DNA of 64,000 nt. It comes from Myxococcales bacterium (GTDB lineage: Bacteria; Myxococcota; Myxococcia; Myxococcales; JAJYLH01). Below, one piece after another: positions 142 to 40,490 of the stretch. Every line of letters begins with the position of its first letter. Within the stretch, counting starts at the first letter, position 1. The DNA lies in assembly GCA_021787845.1 (NCBI GenBank), contig JAJYLH010000001.1, positions 62,001 to 126,000 of the forward strand. Direction: 5' to 3'. The position numbers and the translations under genes were made by a program. The notes under the pieces were generated by a model. That model did not search any database. It saw only the letters and a program-made list of their open reading frames with translations, and was not told where the DNA came from.

Positions 142-999
142 ATGACGGCTCCGCAAAGGACGCGGACGAACGAATCGGTCGAGCCGGAGACGAGCGACGC
201 CGCGGCGTGCTCGCCGGGGTCGTCGGGCATCCCACCGGAAGGGCTACAGGTCATCGGTACCGATGCCGGGGAGCCTTTGGTCCGTCTCGCCCAGGACCGT
301 AACGAGGTGCTGAAGCGGATGGCGGAGACGGACGCGAAGGCGCTCGGCTTCACGAGCGCTACCGCGGGACATACCGAGCGGCAGACGGCGATGGCGCTCG
401 AGCGGACCGCGCACGCGCGCGAGCAGACGCGGCTGTCGACGCGCAGCGCGGAGCTGGCCGGCATCAACACCGACCTCGCGCGGGAACGGACGGGCCTGGC
501 CGGGCAACGAACCGACATGGCGGTCGCGCGCACCGAGATGGCGCGCCGGCGAACCTCTCTCGCTGAGGGGAGGACCGGTCTCGCCCAGCTCCGCACTCGG
601 ATGGCGGAGGAACGCACGGATTTCGCGCGAGAGCGCACTTCCCTCGCCCACGAGCGGACAAGCTACTCCGTCGAGCGCACGGACCTGGCGAAGGAGCGCA
701 ACGAGCTGGCGACGGCGCGCACGCACCTGTCGAACAAGCGCACCGAGCTCGCCCGCGAGCGCACCTGTCTGGCGATGGTCAGGACGGGTCTCGCCCTGCT
801 CACCTTCGGTCTGGCGCTGTTTCGTTTCTCCGGGTTGAACTGGTGGAGCATGTTCGACCTGGGCCTGGCCGTCGCCGGGTTGGCGCTGCTCGGCGCCGGC
901 ATCGCGGGCTACTGGAGAGCGCGAAGGAACATCCGGCACTTGGACCAGGTGCTCGAGGGTTTCGTCGGCCTCGAGCAGGTGGCATTGGAAGACGACTGA
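142..999 (+). CDS. DUF202 membrane protein with a long heptad-repeat helix
   Basis: A 285-residue protein. The ATG at 142 is chosen because GGGAGAAAG lies just upstream; an upstream TTG at 19 has no such site. Residues about 77-217 form roughly twenty consecutive seven-residue units of the form L/M-A-x-x-R-T-x. They run straight into the DUF202 signature (ARERTCLAMVRTGLALLTFG), followed by two hydrophobic segments (about 217-230 and 238-258) and a short charged tail. DUF202 proteins are normally small membrane proteins of unknown function with one copy of this arginine-threonine motif, so this looks like an internal expansion of the family's own helix. No function is assigned. The region before residue 50 is low complexity. 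The gene stands alone on the plus strand, facing the convergent exporter gene. Confidence 0.8.
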   Translation: MTAPQRTRTNESVEPETSDAAACSPGSSGIPPEGLQVIGTDAGEPLVRLAQDRNEVLKRMAETDAKALGFTSATAGHTERQTAMALERTAHAREQTRLSTRSAELAGINTDLARERTGLAGQRTDMAVARTEMARRRTSLAEGRTGLAQLRTRMAEERTDFARERTSLAHERTSYSVERTDLAKERNELATARTHLSNKRTELARERTCLAMVRTGLALLTFGLALFRFSGLNWWSMFDLGLAVAGLALLGAGIAGYWRARRNIRHLDQVLEGFVGLEQVALEDD

Positions 1000-34038: not shown

Positions 34039-34440
34039 TCACTTCTCTCCCGGTCGCTGATGGCAGTCCCAGCAGTACGGCTCGACGCCGAGATAGGCGT
34101 GGCACTTGTCGCAGAACTGGGCCGGGTGCGAGTGGCAGCGGAAGCAGGCCCCGGACTGGCGCGTGTCGCTCAGGTTGATGCGATAGGTCTCCCCGTCGGC
34201 GGCGAGGTAGTCCCGGTCGAGCCCGCGCACCGCGCTGTCGCGCCAGTCGTCCAGAAGCTGCATGTGCTCGGCGCGCATGAACGACGACGACTCGATGCAA
34301 TGCTTTCCGTCGGCGCCGGCAGGCAGCTCGAGCTTCGGCGGCGCGCCGCGGTGTCCCGTCGCAAGGGCGTACCAGGCGGGCGCGGTGATCAGAACGACGA
34401 ATATCGCCAGCCCGCCCAAGATCTTCCCGGTGTCATACAT
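34039..34440 (-). CDS. dsrJ: DsrJ, periplasmic triheme cytochrome c
   Basis: A 133-residue protein with an uncleaved N-terminal membrane anchor (about 8-27) and three haem sites, CFRCH, CDKCH and CWDCH, in the last third. A conserved cysteine (C48) precedes ESSSFMRAEH; in the purple sulfur bacterium protein a cysteine acts as an unusual haem ligand, and this residue is kept here. It is the periplasmic electron entry or exit point of DsrMKJOP. A 151-nt gap with a palindromic repeat separates it from dsrK. Confidence 0.95.
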   Translation of the reverse strand: MYDTGKILGGLAIFVVLITAPAWYALATGHRGAPPKLELPAGADGKHCIESSSFMRAEHMQLLDDWRDSAVRGLDRDYLAADGETYRINLSDTRQSGACFRCHSHPAQFCDKCHAYLGVEPYCWDCHQRPGEK

Positions 34441-34475
34441 CGTCAGGCGGCCTCCTCGGCGTCACGTAGACAGTA

Positions 34476-34547
34476 GGATGGGTGGAGCGGAGCGTAGCCC
34501 ATCTTTCTCGACCGCTGCCGATGGGTTCCGCTCCGCTTCACCCATCC
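34476..34547. repeat. GATGGGT-type palindrome between dsrK and dsrJ
   Basis: Arms 34476-34502 and 34521-34547 are nearly perfect inverted copies (core GGATGGGTGGAGCGGAGC) around an 18-nt loop. A related copy sits inside dsrN at 39721-39802. In the operon transcript it would form a strong hairpin that could separate dsrMK from dsrJOP expression. Confidence 0.75.
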
Positions 34548-34591
34548 CACACGGTTGGCCGAAATGCCTCGGAACATTCTCGACGACATCG

Positions 34592-36265
34592 CTACGCCGC
34601 CTCCACAGTCGGGTGTTCCTCGCTGTCGGCCGGCGGCGCCTCGACCTCGTCCCGCATCGGTTCCTTGCGGAAGTTGAGCTCGCGCTCCTTCTCTCCCTTC
34701 ATCACGAGCGCGTTGGCGACCAGCTCGGTGATGCCGCTGACCTTCACGCCGGGCGCCCAGAAATCGCAGACGGTCGTCAGGGTCGCCCGATCGATCGCGC
34801 AGCAGGCGGCGAGCACGTTGACGCCGTGCTTGTCCTGGACGTACTGGACCGCCTTCCCGCGCGGCATCCCGCCGCGCAGCCGCATCTCCATGTTTTCGTC
34901 GGTGCCCAGGCCCGCGCCGCCGCCGCAGCAGAAGGTCTTTTCGCGGATGGTCCCTTCGGGCATCTCGAAGAAGTTGTGGCAGGCCGCTTTGATCACTTGC
35001 CGCGGCTCTTCCAGCATGCCCATCGCGCGGGCCGGGTTGCAGGAGTCGTGGAAGGTCACCCGCCGGCCGTCGTTGCGCGAGGCGTCCAGCTCGAGCTTGC
35101 CGTGCTGCACGAGGTCCGCCGTGAACTCCATGATGTGAATCATCTTGGTCGACCGGGCGTTCTCGAAGACCGTGCCGGTGATCGGCGACTTCGGGACCTC
35201 CAGGAAATCGGGCGGCCCGTTCATCGTGTCCATGTACTGGTTGATGACGCGCCACATGTGGCCGCACTCGCCGCCGAGAATCCACTTGACGCCGAGCCGC
35301 TTGGCCTCCGCGTACATCTTCGAGTTCAGCCGTTTCATCATGTCGGCCGAGGTGAAGAGGCCGAAGTTGCCGCCCTCGGAGGCGTAGGTGCTCCAGGTGT
35401 AGTTGAGCCCCAGCTCGTGAAAGAGCGCCAGATAGCCCATGCAGGTGTAGATGCCGGGCTCCGCCAGAAAATCGCCGGACGGCGTGACGAAGAGGATGTC
35501 CGCGCCCTTCTTGTTGATGGGAACGTCGATGTGGACGCCGGTCACCTCCTCCACGTCCTCGGCGAAGAACTCGAGGGTGTCCTTGAGGCCATGCGGCTGG
35601 ATGCCCAGGTGGTTCCCGGTGCGGTAGCAGTCGGCGACCGGGTGCATGACCCAGTTGACCGACAGGCCGAGCAGGTGCAGCAGCTCGCGGCCCATCATCG
35701 TGATTTCGGCGGTGTCGATGCCGTAGGGGCAAAAGACCGAGCAGCGCCGGCACTCGGTGCATTGATAGAAGTAATAGAACCACTCCTTGAGCACTTCCGG
35801 CGTCAGCGGGCGCGCGCCGGCCCAGCGGCCGAGGATTTTCCCGAAGGTGGTGAAGTCGTGGCGATAGACGCTGCGCAAGAGCTCCGCGCGCAGCACCGGC
35901 ATGTTCTTCGGGTCGCCGCCGCCGATGTAGAAGTGGCACTTGTCCGCGCAGGCGCCGCAGCGCACGCAGATGTCCATGAAGACCTTGAACGACCGGTACT
36001 TCTGCAGCCGCTCCCGCATCCCGTCGAAGATGATCCGCTTCCAGTTCTCCGGGAGCTTCCAGTCCTCGTCGGTCGGATGCCAGGCGTGTCCGTTGGGAAA
36101 ACCGATGTGCTCCAGGTCCTTGGGCTTGGAGGGATAGATGAAGCTGCCGGGCCGGAAGACGGTCGGCGTGTCCCGCCAGTCGGTCGCGGGCGGCTGGTAA
36201 TCGACCCGATGGACCTCTTCCGGGTGGTAGTACTCGAGCTCGTCCGGCTTGTGCGCTTGAGACAT
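34592..36265 (-). CDS. dsrK: DsrK, catalytic iron-sulfur subunit of DsrMKJOP
   Basis: A 557-residue cytoplasmic subunit. Ferredoxin motifs are CVRCGACADKCH (about 120-131) and CTECRRCSVFCP (about 190-201). The CCG-type domains carry GECGHMW, HDSCNPARAMG and CCGGGAG. DsrK is the HdrD-like subunit thought to reduce the DsrC trisulfide. It starts 2 nt after dsrM with an AAGGAG site inside the dsrM end. The N-terminal 100 residues match the DsrK-specific extension and are absent from the other two HdrD-like proteins in the window. Confidence 0.95.
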   Translation of the reverse strand: MSQAHKPDELEYYHPEEVHRVDYQPPATDWRDTPTVFRPGSFIYPSKPKDLEHIGFPNGHAWHPTDEDWKLPENWKRIIFDGMRERLQKYRSFKVFMDICVRCGACADKCHFYIGGGDPKNMPVLRAELLRSVYRHDFTTFGKILGRWAGARPLTPEVLKEWFYYFYQCTECRRCSVFCPYGIDTAEITMMGRELLHLLGLSVNWVMHPVADCYRTGNHLGIQPHGLKDTLEFFAEDVEEVTGVHIDVPINKKGADILFVTPSGDFLAEPGIYTCMGYLALFHELGLNYTWSTYASEGGNFGLFTSADMMKRLNSKMYAEAKRLGVKWILGGECGHMWRVINQYMDTMNGPPDFLEVPKSPITGTVFENARSTKMIHIMEFTADLVQHGKLELDASRNDGRRVTFHDSCNPARAMGMLEEPRQVIKAACHNFFEMPEGTIREKTFCCGGGAGLGTDENMEMRLRGGMPRGKAVQYVQDKHGVNVLAACCAIDRATLTTVCDFWAPGVKVSGITELVANALVMKGEKERELNFRKEPMRDEVEAPPADSEEHPTVEAA

Positions 36266-36267
36266 GC

Positions 36268-37254
36268 TCACTCCTTGTCCAGAGGCAGGCCGGCCTCGCG
36301 CATCCGGTCGCGGAATTCGTCCTCGTACTCCGCGTAGGTGTGGACCGGGAGCGGACGGTTCCACGGATTGACGTGGTGGCGCGCGCGGTTGTCGTTGGCG
36401 AGGTTGCGCGTCGGCGACAAGAAGACGCCGCCCAGGTGCATCAGCTTGCTGAACGGGAAGTAGGCGAGCAGCGTGCTGACGCAGAACAGGTGCGCGTAGA
36501 AAATCCAGCCCACCGCAGGCGGATGTGGCGCGAGGACCAGAAGACCCATCACCGCGGCCTTGACCTGCGAGACGTCGACCTTGTCGATGTGCCTCATCCA
36601 CAGGCCGGTGCAGCCGATGGCGAGGAACAAGAACAGCGGAAAGTAGTCGGCCGGGAGCGACAGATAGCGCATCCGCGCCCAGCCGAGGCGCCGCGCGAGC
36701 AGGAACGTCACCGCGCCCAGGAAGACGAAGCTCGTGATGTAGATCCCCGGAACGCCGACCTGCAAGAAGCCGTCGACGTTGGTGAGGACGTCGACGAACC
36801 GGGGAATCGGAGCGAAGAAGAAGCGCAGGTGGCGCAGGACGATGATCAGCATCGAGTAGTGGAAGGCGAGCGCCGCCGCCCACAGCCACTTGTTGGTACG
36901 ATAGGCGAGCTGGCCGTCGCGCAAGACCGTTTCGCGGTTGCGGAAGAGCGAGCGAAACGCCAGAATCTCCAGCGCCATCCGGCCCATGGCTTGCCATCCG
37001 GTCGCGGGGTTGTCGAGCTTGTCCTGTTTGATCCACGGAAGCGACTTCTGCTGGCCGCAGGTCGTGGGAATGCGGAACGGCACCGGCGAGCGGCCCCAGC
37101 CGATGACCTTGACGACGATGCCGACCAGAAAGACCGCGGCCGCGAAGTAGGGAACGACGACGCCAAAGAGCCAGCGCAGGTCGCCCAGGTGAACGCCGAC
37201 GTACGCGGCGAGCAGGAGCACGAGGACCGCGGCGAGAGAAACGAGAGCTTTCAT
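36268..37254 (-). CDS. dsrM: DsrM, cytochrome b subunit of DsrMKJOP
   Basis: A 328-residue membrane protein with about six helices and histidines for haem b (AFHYSMLII; WIFYAHLF). The cytoplasmic loop SLPWIKQDKLDNPATGWQAM is characteristic of DsrM. It takes electrons from menaquinol and passes them to DsrK. It overlaps the RsbRD-like gene upstream by ATGA and is followed directly by dsrK. Confidence 0.95.
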   Translation of the reverse strand: MKALVSLAAVLVLLLAAYVGVHLGDLRWLFGVVVPYFAAAVFLVGIVVKVIGWGRSPVPFRIPTTCGQQKSLPWIKQDKLDNPATGWQAMGRMALEILAFRSLFRNRETVLRDGQLAYRTNKWLWAAALAFHYSMLIIVLRHLRFFFAPIPRFVDVLTNVDGFLQVGVPGIYITSFVFLGAVTFLLARRLGWARMRYLSLPADYFPLFLFLAIGCTGLWMRHIDKVDVSQVKAAVMGLLVLAPHPPAVGWIFYAHLFCVSTLLAYFPFSKLMHLGGVFLSPTRNLANDNRARHHVNPWNRPLPVHTYAEYEDEFRDRMREAGLPLDKE

Positions 37255-37886
37255 GGTTCACCACCGTAGGGCGGGGGCTCGTCCCCCGCCGAATCGCCCA
37301 GGCAATCCGACGCGGTCGGGGGACAAGCCCCCGCCCTACGTATTTCTCCTCCAACGGGATTCAACGTGATCAGCGGCGGCTCTTCGACCATGTCGAGCGT
37401 GCCGGCCTCGATGTTCCAGCGACGCAAGAGCCCGCCCACGCTGCGTTTGAGCTCGTTCAGGCGAAGCTGGAACACCTGTTCGCGCAGGCGGACGTAGACG
37501 TCGAACGCCTGCATGCCCAGCCGCTCGATCTGCCGATCGAACGCAGCGAGATCGTCCAATGACGCGCCGGGGACCTCTTCGCGCACGATTTCGCGCAAGC
37601 GCCAAACGAACCCGACCGCCTGCGAAGGCGACAAATCCTGGACGGCCCGGACGCGCAACACCGCGTCGAGCGCGGACGCGGCGGCGGTCCCGGGAGGCTC
37701 TGGGCTCGCCGCCGCGTGGAGAAGGTGAGGCAACTCGGTCCGGTACGTGTTTCCGACCGGATTCGCGAACGGATCTCGTTGCTGGCGCCAGAGCTTGCCC
37801 CCGACGCCGTGCTCATCGAGGATGGCGTCGATCCAGCGCTCGACCAGCGCTCGCTCCTTCTGCGCGATGAGCTCCGAGAGCGACAT
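37251..37886 (-). CDS. RsbRD N-terminal-domain-like protein preceding dsrM
   Basis: A 211-residue soluble helical protein resembling the RsbT co-antagonist RsbRD N-terminal (globin-fold-like) domain: MSLSELIAQKERALVERWIDAI, then SPSQAVGFVWRLREIV. Proteins of this kind are commonly encoded just before dsrM in sulfate reducers, where their role is unknown. The last 30 residues are proline-rich, carry two cysteines, and are encoded by a palindromic repeat (37265-37340), so the true conserved protein probably ends near residue 180. It overlaps dsrM by ATGA. Confidence 0.75.
   Translation of the reverse strand: MSLSELIAQKERALVERWIDAILDEHGVGGKLWRQQRDPFANPVGNTYRTELPHLLHAAASPEPPGTAAASALDAVLRVRAVQDLSPSQAVGFVWRLREIVREEVPGASLDDLAAFDRQIERLGMQAFDVYVRLREQVFQLRLNELKRSVGGLLRRWNIEAGTLDMVEEPPLITLNPVGGEIRRAGACPPTASDCLGDSAGDEPPPYGGEP
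37265..37340. repeat. Inverted repeat forming the 3' end of the RsbRD-like gene
   Basis: Arms 37265-37290 and 37313-37340 are near-perfect inverted copies (core GTAGGGCGGGGGCT). They encode the final residues of the RsbRD-like protein just before the dsrM start, and the hairpin would lie in the mRNA immediately upstream of dsrM translation. Confidence 0.75.
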
Positions 37887-38291: not shown

Positions 38292-38862
38292 TGCGGTTCT
38301 CCTCTTCTGCGTGCGTGGACGGACGAGCGAACGTGGACTTCTTCTTGCGCGCCAGGATCAGCGCGAGCGGCTCCTGCTCCGCGGGCTTGGGCGAATAGCC
38401 GAGCTCGGCGGCGTAGGCGATGCAGAGCTGGGCTTCATCGGTCCTGCCCAGCTCCTCGAGCGCGGGCGCCAGGTGGAAGAAAGCCGCTCCGTTCTTGGGA
38501 TCGAGCGCGATGGCCCGCGACAGGCAGTCGACCGCGGCCTTCGCCTTGCCGAGACAGAGAAGCCCGAGGCCCTGATTGAAGTGGGCCAGCCCGAGGTCCG
38601 GCTGCGCTTCGACCGCCCGGCGATTGGCCTCGACGCTCTCCTGGAACTGCCACTTCGCCAAGAGAATGCCGCCCAGGTTGACCCAGGCGCCCGCGCATGT
38701 CGGATCGAGCTCCACCGCCGCCCGCAGCTCCCCCTCGGCGTCGGTGAGCTGTCCGGACTTGATGAGCGCGGTGCCCCGGGAGAGGTGCGCGCAGGCCTGC
38801 TCCTGCGCGTCGTCGGAGGCAATCTCGCGGGCAGCCGGGGTGATCTCAGCCGTGGCCTTCAT
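38269..38862 (-). CDS. TPR-repeat protein between dsrN and dsrC
   Basis: A 197-residue soluble protein with about four tetratricopeptide repeats (residues 20-160; for example GAWVNLGGILLAKWQFQES, ALDPKNGAAFFHLAPALEEL). Such proteins are protein-binding scaffolds. Its start overlaps the dsrN stop by ATGA and its end overlaps dsrC by 23 nt, so it is translated with both and may act as an assembly factor or partner in DsrAB/DsrC chemistry (inference). No signal peptide. Confidence 0.85.
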   Translation of the reverse strand: MKATAEITPAAREIASDDAQEQACAHLSRGTALIKSGQLTDAEGELRAAVELDPTCAGAWVNLGGILLAKWQFQESVEANRRAVEAQPDLGLAHFNQGLGLLCLGKAKAAVDCLSRAIALDPKNGAAFFHLAPALEELGRTDEAQLCIAYAAELGYSPKPAEQEPLALILARKKKSTFARPSTHAEEENRNGAAQSR

Positions 38863-40490
38863 GAGAGTCTCCGCCCGTCGCTCGAGATGGACGGGAAGCG
38901 AGTGGGTTGCGCGGTCCGGCCCGGCGCCGCCAAGCGCTGGGGACGGCCGCCCGACATTCCAGAGCGATCGCTGAGCAACGAGTCCTGCGCCGACCGCTCT
39001 GGAAGGACGGCCGGCCGGTCGGGTGATCGTTTCATGGCACTGGACGCATCCTGGGCGACCGGACCGATGGAGTGTGCCGAAATGCGAAATGCGTGCGCGG
39101 CGCGGACGAGACCGGGCGCCCATTCGGGCACGCCGAGCGCGTGGAGATGCGTGTAGGTCGCGACGACGTTCCCGACCCGCATTCCGTCGCGGCCGTCGCC
39201 CAGTCCGGTGCCGCGGCCCAGAGTCATCACTGTTTCGAGCGCGGACGGCCCGACGAGCCGCGAGTAGTGAAATTCGTGGCCGCGCAAGGTCGTGCCGATG
39301 TCGAGGAACGGGTTGGCGCGATCGATCTGCGCCGAGACGTAGCCGTGGCCTTGGGGGCGCGTGAAGACTTCGACGGAGAACGGTAGCGCTCCTGCCATCG
39401 GGTAGTCGCCATCGCCGTGGCGAACCGAGCGCGACAGGTACATCAGCCCGCCGCACTCGGCCCAGACCGGAAGGCCCTCGGAGATGGCGCGCGCGAGTTG
39501 GGCGCGCAACTTGGCATTCGCGCTGAGGGCGGGCGCGTGCTCTTCGGGGAACCCGCCGCCGGCGTAGAGCGCGTCGATAGCCGGGAGATCCTCGTCCGCG
39601 AGCGGCGAGATGGTAACGATCTCCGCACCCGCCGCCTCGAGCGCTTCCAGGTTCTCTGGGTAGTAGAACGAGAACGCCGCGTCGCGCAGGACGCCGATCT
39701 TCGCCGTCGGGGAAGTTCGTAGGAGGGGTGGAGCGCAGCGCAGCCCATCATCCCGTGCCGTCGCCAACGCGCTGGATGGGCTCTGCTCCGTTTCACCCGT
39801 CCAACCGCTTGCGGCGATGACCGCATCAACGTCGACGTACTTCTCCGCGACCTCCGCCAGCCGCTCGAGCGCGGCTTCCCGCTGGGGGTGCTCGTCCGCG
39901 CAAACGAGACCGAGGTGCCGGCTCGGTAGCCACTGCTCGTCGAGTCGCGGGATGGCACCGATCACTGGAATGTCGCTCACGTCGGCGAGCGCGCGTCGGA
40001 TGAGATCTTCCTGTCGCCGGGTGGCGACGCGGTTGAGAATCACGCCGGCGATGGGCAGGTCCGGATCCAGGGCCCGGCAGCCCAGCAGCAGTGCGGCCGC
40101 GGTGCGGGTGACCTTGACCGCGTTGACTACCTGCAGGACCGGAGCGCCGAGGACTTTTGCCAACGCGGCGGTGGAGTGCGAGCCGCGTTCGTCGAGGCCG
40201 TCGAAGAGGCCGCGGTTGCCTTCGATCAGCGCCAGATCGGAGGTCGCGGCGGCCCTGGCGACTGATGCGAGAATCGCCTCGCGCGACATCAGATAGGTGT
40301 CGAGGTTGCGTCCCGGTGCGCGGGCGGCGGCGCCGAGCCAGGCGGCGTCGATGAAGTCCGGCCCCTTCTTGAACGGCGCCACGCGCCAGCCGCGGTTCAC
40401 CAGCGCCCGTAAGAGACCGAGGGCCACGAGGCTCTTGCCGGCGTCCCCGGAGAGCCCCGCCACGACCGCTGTCGGCATGCCGCTCGGCAC
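38859..40490 (-). CDS. dsrN: DsrN, siroheme amidase (CbiA-type cobyrinate a,c-diamide synthase family)
   Basis: A 543-residue protein. Residues 1-210 are the ATP-dependent amidoligase domain (AGLSGDAGKSLVALGLLRAL; FKKGPDFIDAAWL), and 262-455 the glutamine amidotransferase (AFSFYYPENLEALEAAGA; WAECGGLMYLS with the catalytic Cys). DsrN amidates siroheme for DsrAB. Between the domains, residues about 230-257 are encoded by a palindromic repeat, an in-frame insertion absent from ordinary CbiA. The last 70 residues are also unlike the family and contain short inverted repeats. GTG at 40490 is chosen for AGGAGG 8 nt upstream; ATG at 40478 is possible. Confidence 0.9.
   Translation of the reverse strand: MPSGMPTAVVAGLSGDAGKSLVALGLLRALVNRGWRVAPFKKGPDFIDAAWLGAAARAPGRNLDTYLMSREAILASVARAAATSDLALIEGNRGLFDGLDERGSHSTAALAKVLGAPVLQVVNAVKVTRTAAALLLGCRALDPDLPIAGVILNRVATRRQEDLIRRALADVSDIPVIGAIPRLDEQWLPSRHLGLVCADEHPQREAALERLAEVAEKYVDVDAVIAASGWTGETEQSPSSALATARDDGLRCAPPLLRTSPTAKIGVLRDAAFSFYYPENLEALEAAGAEIVTISPLADEDLPAIDALYAGGGFPEEHAPALSANAKLRAQLARAISEGLPVWAECGGLMYLSRSVRHGDGDYPMAGALPFSVEVFTRPQGHGYVSAQIDRANPFLDIGTTLRGHEFHYSRLVGPSALETVMTLGRGTGLGDGRDGMRVGNVVATYTHLHALGVPEWAPGLVRAAHAFRISAHSIGPVAQDASSAMKRSPDRPAVLPERSAQDSLLSDRSGMSGGRPQRLAAPGRTAQPTRFPSISSDGRRLS
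39721..39802. repeat. GATGGGT-type palindrome inserted in frame in dsrN
   Basis: Arms 39721-39750 and 39774-39802 are inverted copies related to the intergenic palindrome at 34476-34547 (shared GGTGGAGCG and CCCATC blocks). It adds about 28 residues to the linker between the two DsrN domains without breaking the frame. Confidence 0.75.

Follow-up and report, generated by a model that had tools for sequence, protein, structure and literature searches.

The gene at 38859-40490 (minus strand) of the window, that is, of the whole 64,000-nucleotide stretch analysed here (G000:C153:62001-126000, from a 6.24-Mb draft genome of 153 contigs), encodes DsrN, a CobB/CbiA-type a,c-diamide synthase of 543 residues. 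The protein matches the profile NF002204 with 428.9 bits (cut-off 254) and combines the two Pfam domains of CobB/DsrN-type enzymes: a CbiA nucleotide-binding domain (residues 9-185; 39936-40466, minus strand) and a GATase_3 amidotransferase domain (residues 264-452; 39135-39701, minus strand), with conserved P-loop and GATase residues. The alignment of homologues shows no variation at the P-loop residues, at C346 or at H448; with the catalytic residues intact, nothing points to a dead gene. The name dsrN, implying siroheme amidation, is suggested by the gene's place in a dsr cluster. Its frame remains open through two different palindromic elements, one falling exactly between the two domains (39719-39805) and one at the 3′ end (about 38898-39066); a relative of the former lies in intergenic DNA at 34473-34550, between the ORFs at 34039-34440 and 34592-37354 (both minus strand).

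What is the element between the domains? It is a GTAG-tagged REP doublet, or REPIN: two inverted REP units and a spacer form one hairpin, with the GTAG tetranucleotide at the outer end. The covariance model of the family aligns to the whole of 39719-39805 (G000:C153:101719-101805; 73.5 bits, E 1.1e-13), an in-frame repeat of 87 bp, or 29 codons. It runs from GTAGGAGGGGTGGAGCGCAGCGCAGCCCATC through a 25-bp loop to GATGGGCTCTGCTCCGTTTCACCCGTCCAAC, its left half-site being an exact match to the family pattern. GTAG stands at 39719-39722, its counterpart at the opposite end having decayed to CAAC. The 31-bp arms match at 24 of 31 positions, whereas those of the intergenic copy match at 27 of 31. 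The plus strand folds at -50.0 kcal/mol, lower than each of 200 shuffles, and the coding strand more weakly (-44.6 kcal/mol, z -2.2). A sequence-only reading of this DNA had proposed an inverted repeat at 39721-39802, in frame in the dsrN linker and of the same family as an intergenic copy at 34476-34547. Family match, half-site, fold and open frame bear this out, and the two copies share one family model; only the extents need correcting, as the 82-bp span was a few bases too short and the intergenic copy has the fuller span given above.

Genome-wide, the half-site pattern occurs 140 times (64 forward, 76 reverse), against no match for the same pattern read backwards. Full copies follow GTAGGATGGGTGGAGCGnAGCGnAGCCCATC-loop-GATGGGCTnCGCTnCGCTCCACCCATCCTAC, and the covariance model finds the family at no fewer than 80 places; the repeat has the high copy number and the dispersed, mostly extragenic distribution of a REPIN. 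Among the matches listed, lengths range from 71 to 97 bp, and 75 of 80 copies begin with GTAG or end with CTAC. We considered divisibility by three as a signal of selection: the three insertions within single genes measure 87, 75 and 84 bp, but 39 of the 80 copies among the matches listed are also multiples of three, and the signal is not significant. Near-exact half-sites number 84 in the host genome versus none in 194 other Myxococcota genomes, which rules out sharing across the order (to which Anaeromyxobacter sp. RBG_16_69_14 also belongs); by this test, the family is restricted to the host genome. The family model gave a single weak match in the genomes of relatives (E 0.006), and a search of a plasmid collection with the repeat returned one match (75%), in Candidatus Thiodictyon syntrophicum only. 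Judged by these comparisons, the family is lineage-specific and appears to have multiplied in the host lineage.

As expected of a REPIN host, the genome holds one gene for a REP-associated tyrosine transposase (RAYT; L041:1324-1788, 154 aa; NF047646, 81.2 bits, curated cut-off 80). Long, directly repeated palindromic elements that start with CAGTAGGATGGACAGTCC and end with GGACTGCCCATCCTACTG border the gene on either side, the whole arrangement lying at L041:1100-1985. These have only the GTAGGATGG ends in common with the REPIN and are otherwise different, so that the RAYT is bordered by a longer palindromic element with GTAGGATGG ends and not by the REPIN family itself. Such an arrangement is compatible with REPIN status, since RAYT genes with unrelated long inverted-repeat flanks exist (PMC3733652), and in the systems studied RAYTs either recognise the GTAG motif or use it in cleavage (PMC8266576). 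With flanks that differ apart from their ends, we infer, rather than observe, that the host RAYT mobilises the REPIN family. A second Y1 transposase match (L042:1273-2109, minus strand) is weak and below the cut-off (21.7 bits), and is surrounded by a different repeat encoding VPVPGHSRVRL/MSVRVQA-like peptides.

To place the insert in its protein context, we measured the linker between two conserved anchors in 82 homologues. CobB/DsrN relatives numbered 536 among the matches, of which 80 were kept. It has 42 residues in the window, 29 in the nearest homologue (67% identical) and a median of 30 across the set (n=82; minimum 27, range 27-65). Without the repeat, 13 residues would be left, fewer than in any of the 82 homologues, which indicates that the REPIN replaces part of the native linker while lengthening it. 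By this comparison the net gain is about 12-13 residues, with about 16 native residues gone; the earlier estimate of some 28 added residues comes close to what the repeat encodes, namely 29, but overstates the growth of the linker. The encoded stretch (DsrN residues about 229-258, minus strand) reads GWTGETEQSPSSALATARDDGLRCAPPLLR and includes TGETEQSPSSALATAR. That reading had proposed a homologue alignment and had named conservation of the same residues in DsrN homologues lacking the repeat as evidence against an insertion; the alignment confirms the insertion, and none of the homologues examined carries these residues, which rules them out as native linker. In an AlphaFold model built from a 43-sequence alignment (mean pLDDT 84.4), both domains lie mostly above 90, and values below 50 occur only at residues 232-238 and 240-255, within the REPIN, and at 481-543, the tail. 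The insert is accordingly predicted to be a disordered spacer between the domains.

The tail brings in the second palindromic element, which the sequence-only reading had overlooked. Window positions 38898-39066 have counterparts at about 20 further genomic sites (33 matches, 71-91% identity) and encode DsrN residues about 476-531, in place of the native C-terminus: the element starts near residue 476, where homologues end, and 86 residues follow the conserved W457, compared with a homologue median of 20. A long extension is also found in the DsrN homologue of the Myxococcales MAG CSMAG_262 (L044; 242 residues past W457), while the others have 11-51.

How exceptional is a copy inside a gene? 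For a census, we took the flanks of 80 REPINs and about 20 half-sites and used a codon model, trained on the host genome, to score their frames. About 92 of the 100 copies checked lie outside genes; four of about 100 are internal to open frames that are coding to either side of the repeat, four further proteins, NuoM among them, are extended C-terminally by a REPIN, and the remaining copies are intergenic by the codon-model test. All four internal copies lie between domains or conserved blocks. Besides dsrN, they comprise an ORF for HMG-CoA reductase and mevalonate kinase (L166:97-2535, plus strand) with the REPIN at 1501-1582 as the joint; an ORF combining radical SAM TIGR03960 with TIGR03936 (DUF2344; L167:548-3073, minus strand), in whose linker a short tandem repeat, coding for QDERSGLQDERSW-like peptides, comes after the REPIN; and a large membrane protein lacking a Pfam match (L173:1145-3082, minus strand), where two blocks align to homologues in relatives and the REPIN occupies the gap that separates them. 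In relatives, the genes for HMG-CoA reductase and mevalonate kinase are separate, a fused form in the relatives G002 and G015 being ruled out by stops between the genes. A G8-A6-G5 run lies just 3′ of the L166 repeat, and a sequencing error there could have created an apparent fusion. Bacterial genomes are mostly coding, and the few internal copies hence amount to a strong deficit of REPINs inside genes, the survivors occupying tolerant places. The statement of the first reading that such repeats are normally confined to intergenic DNA is true for most copies; three more internal ones nevertheless exist in this genome, and intragenic REPs have been documented elsewhere (PMC3733652).

Together, these data make it very probable that a REPIN transposed into the DNA encoding the linker between CbiA and GATase_3 and was tolerated there, most likely as a neutral or nearly neutral insert. 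In such a scenario, a member of the lineage-expanded family—two inverted, GTAG-tagged REP hairpins—would have entered the linker DNA as single-stranded DNA moved by the RAYT or a lost relative of it, and about 16 native linker codons would have been lost at or after the insertion. The copy may have persisted because the GC-rich palindrome is free of stops in this frame, has a length divisible by three and lies in a flexible linker, where selection tolerates it. The second element would have replaced the native stop of dsrN, adding a disordered tail.

Alternatively, the insert might be retained for a function, either as part of the DsrN linker or as an mRNA hairpin that tunes expression of the dsr operon. 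Both strands form a stable hairpin, and several REPINs have been captured at domain joints; the coding-strand fold is the weaker of the two, however, the same repeat occurs in unrelated proteins, linker length is free to vary among homologues (27-65 residues) and the insert is predicted to be disordered, all of which renders a function improbable. We deem it more doubtful still that dsrN is broken, with the repeat interrupting the gene in the living organism, or that assembly error has produced its open frame. The draft comprises 153 contigs, and repeats are often where assemblies go wrong, yet a single open frame spans both domains with catalytic residues intact, the repeat sits well within a 417-kb contig, and the copy has diverged from the consensus, as fits an old resident. 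The position exactly between two domains could also mean that each is translated on its own, which would make the repeat in effect intergenic; with no stop between the domains and 82 homologues that are single chains over the same linker, this is very unlikely. That an ordinary linker, variable in length as such linkers are (27-65 residues in homologues), contains this palindrome by chance is ruled out for practical purposes: the sequence matches a dispersed family at E 1.1e-13 and has an exact half-site whose control pattern has zero matches genome-wide.

The preferred reading, a tolerated transposition into linker DNA, finds a less expected counterpart in other phyla. The DsrN linkers of L076, L078 and L079 (Desulfobacterales/Deltaproteobacteria) and of L088 (Nitrospirae/Nitrospirota) contain an unrelated palindrome, AATCCCCCCTnnCCCCCCTTT, in frame, where it encodes NPPLPPF-KGG-type peptides; hairpin scores of these linker palindromes reach 15-18, compared with 8-10 elsewhere in the same genes. 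L105 and L090 carry fragments of the AATCCCCCCTnnCCCCCCTTT palindrome in this linker. Its half-sites are numerous in the genomes of L088 (25), L079 (20), L076 (21) and L090 (41), with a control count of 0, and few in those of L078 (2) and L105 (3). The Desulfobacterales palindromes may stem from one event. The insertion in L088, which barely alters linker length (30 versus 29), looks independent because L077 and L083 have otherwise very similar linkers without the palindrome. From sequence comparison, the DsrN linker has thus probably acquired palindromes on three or more occasions. One could go further and regard it as a recurrent landing site—for a GTAG REPIN in the myxobacterium, for a AATCCCCCC-type palindrome in Desulfobacterales and, independently, for the same type in Nitrospirota—with palindromes repeatedly rewriting linkers and, in the present genome, maybe joining HMG-CoA reductase to mevalonate kinase; this broader proposal is tentative, and we consider it rather less probable than not. 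Alongside the internal captures, of which one genome has several, each at a domain joint, the data suggest that linkers of multi-domain enzymes act as safe harbours for palindromic repeats, and that repeat families unrelated to one another can reach the same linker in different phyla. They also carry a warning for annotation, in that odd linkers or tails in such genomes may be repeats.

How does dsrN compare with known systems? In the one library searched, we found no paper linking GTAG, REPs and Myxococcota, and a crude search there for dsrN with palindromic repeats yielded nothing relevant. REPINs were defined by Bertels and Rainey in 2011 (PMC3116915), and the host family resembles theirs in its two inverted REPs with a variable spacer, single hairpin, many copies and RAYT in the genome; it differs in that the RAYT is flanked by a different, longer palindrome, leaving the family link to be inferred, and in that a few copies are intragenic. 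The Rickettsia palindromic elements (RPE; Ogata et al. 2000 and 2002, as cited in PMC10969869 and PMC3733652) likewise lie in frame within unrelated proteins whose frames stay open. According to these citing accounts, RPE are about 150 bp long or CGTC-tagged, and nearly half of the copies in Rickettsia conorii are intragenic, compared with about 4% internal copies here. The CGTC tag belongs to RPE-type repeats (PMC3733652), and the host repeat, tagged with GTAG, has neither this tag nor an RPE family sequence. The closest precedent are the intragenic GTAG-REPs of several species, including Opitutus terrae, Thauera and Thioalkalivibrio (Di Nocera et al. 2013, PMC3733652). Most of those are dimers, with 20-30 encoded residues, and flexible linkers or loops were proposed as the sites that tolerate them. 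As in dsrN, these are GTAG-tagged palindromes, mostly dimers, within genes of known function. Given these precedents, the dsrN capture is not a new kind of system; it is, on good support, a clear fresh example of a phenomenon known for GTAG-REPs since 2013 and for in-frame palindromes in Rickettsia since 2000, and provides a clean case, open to testing, in which a selfish DNA hairpin has turned into protein sequence. What sets it apart from the GTAG-REPs of Di Nocera et al. are the host phylum and the repeat sequence, the targets—many DNA replication and repair genes there, dsrN and biosynthetic or membrane proteins here—and the additional loss of native linker in dsrN.
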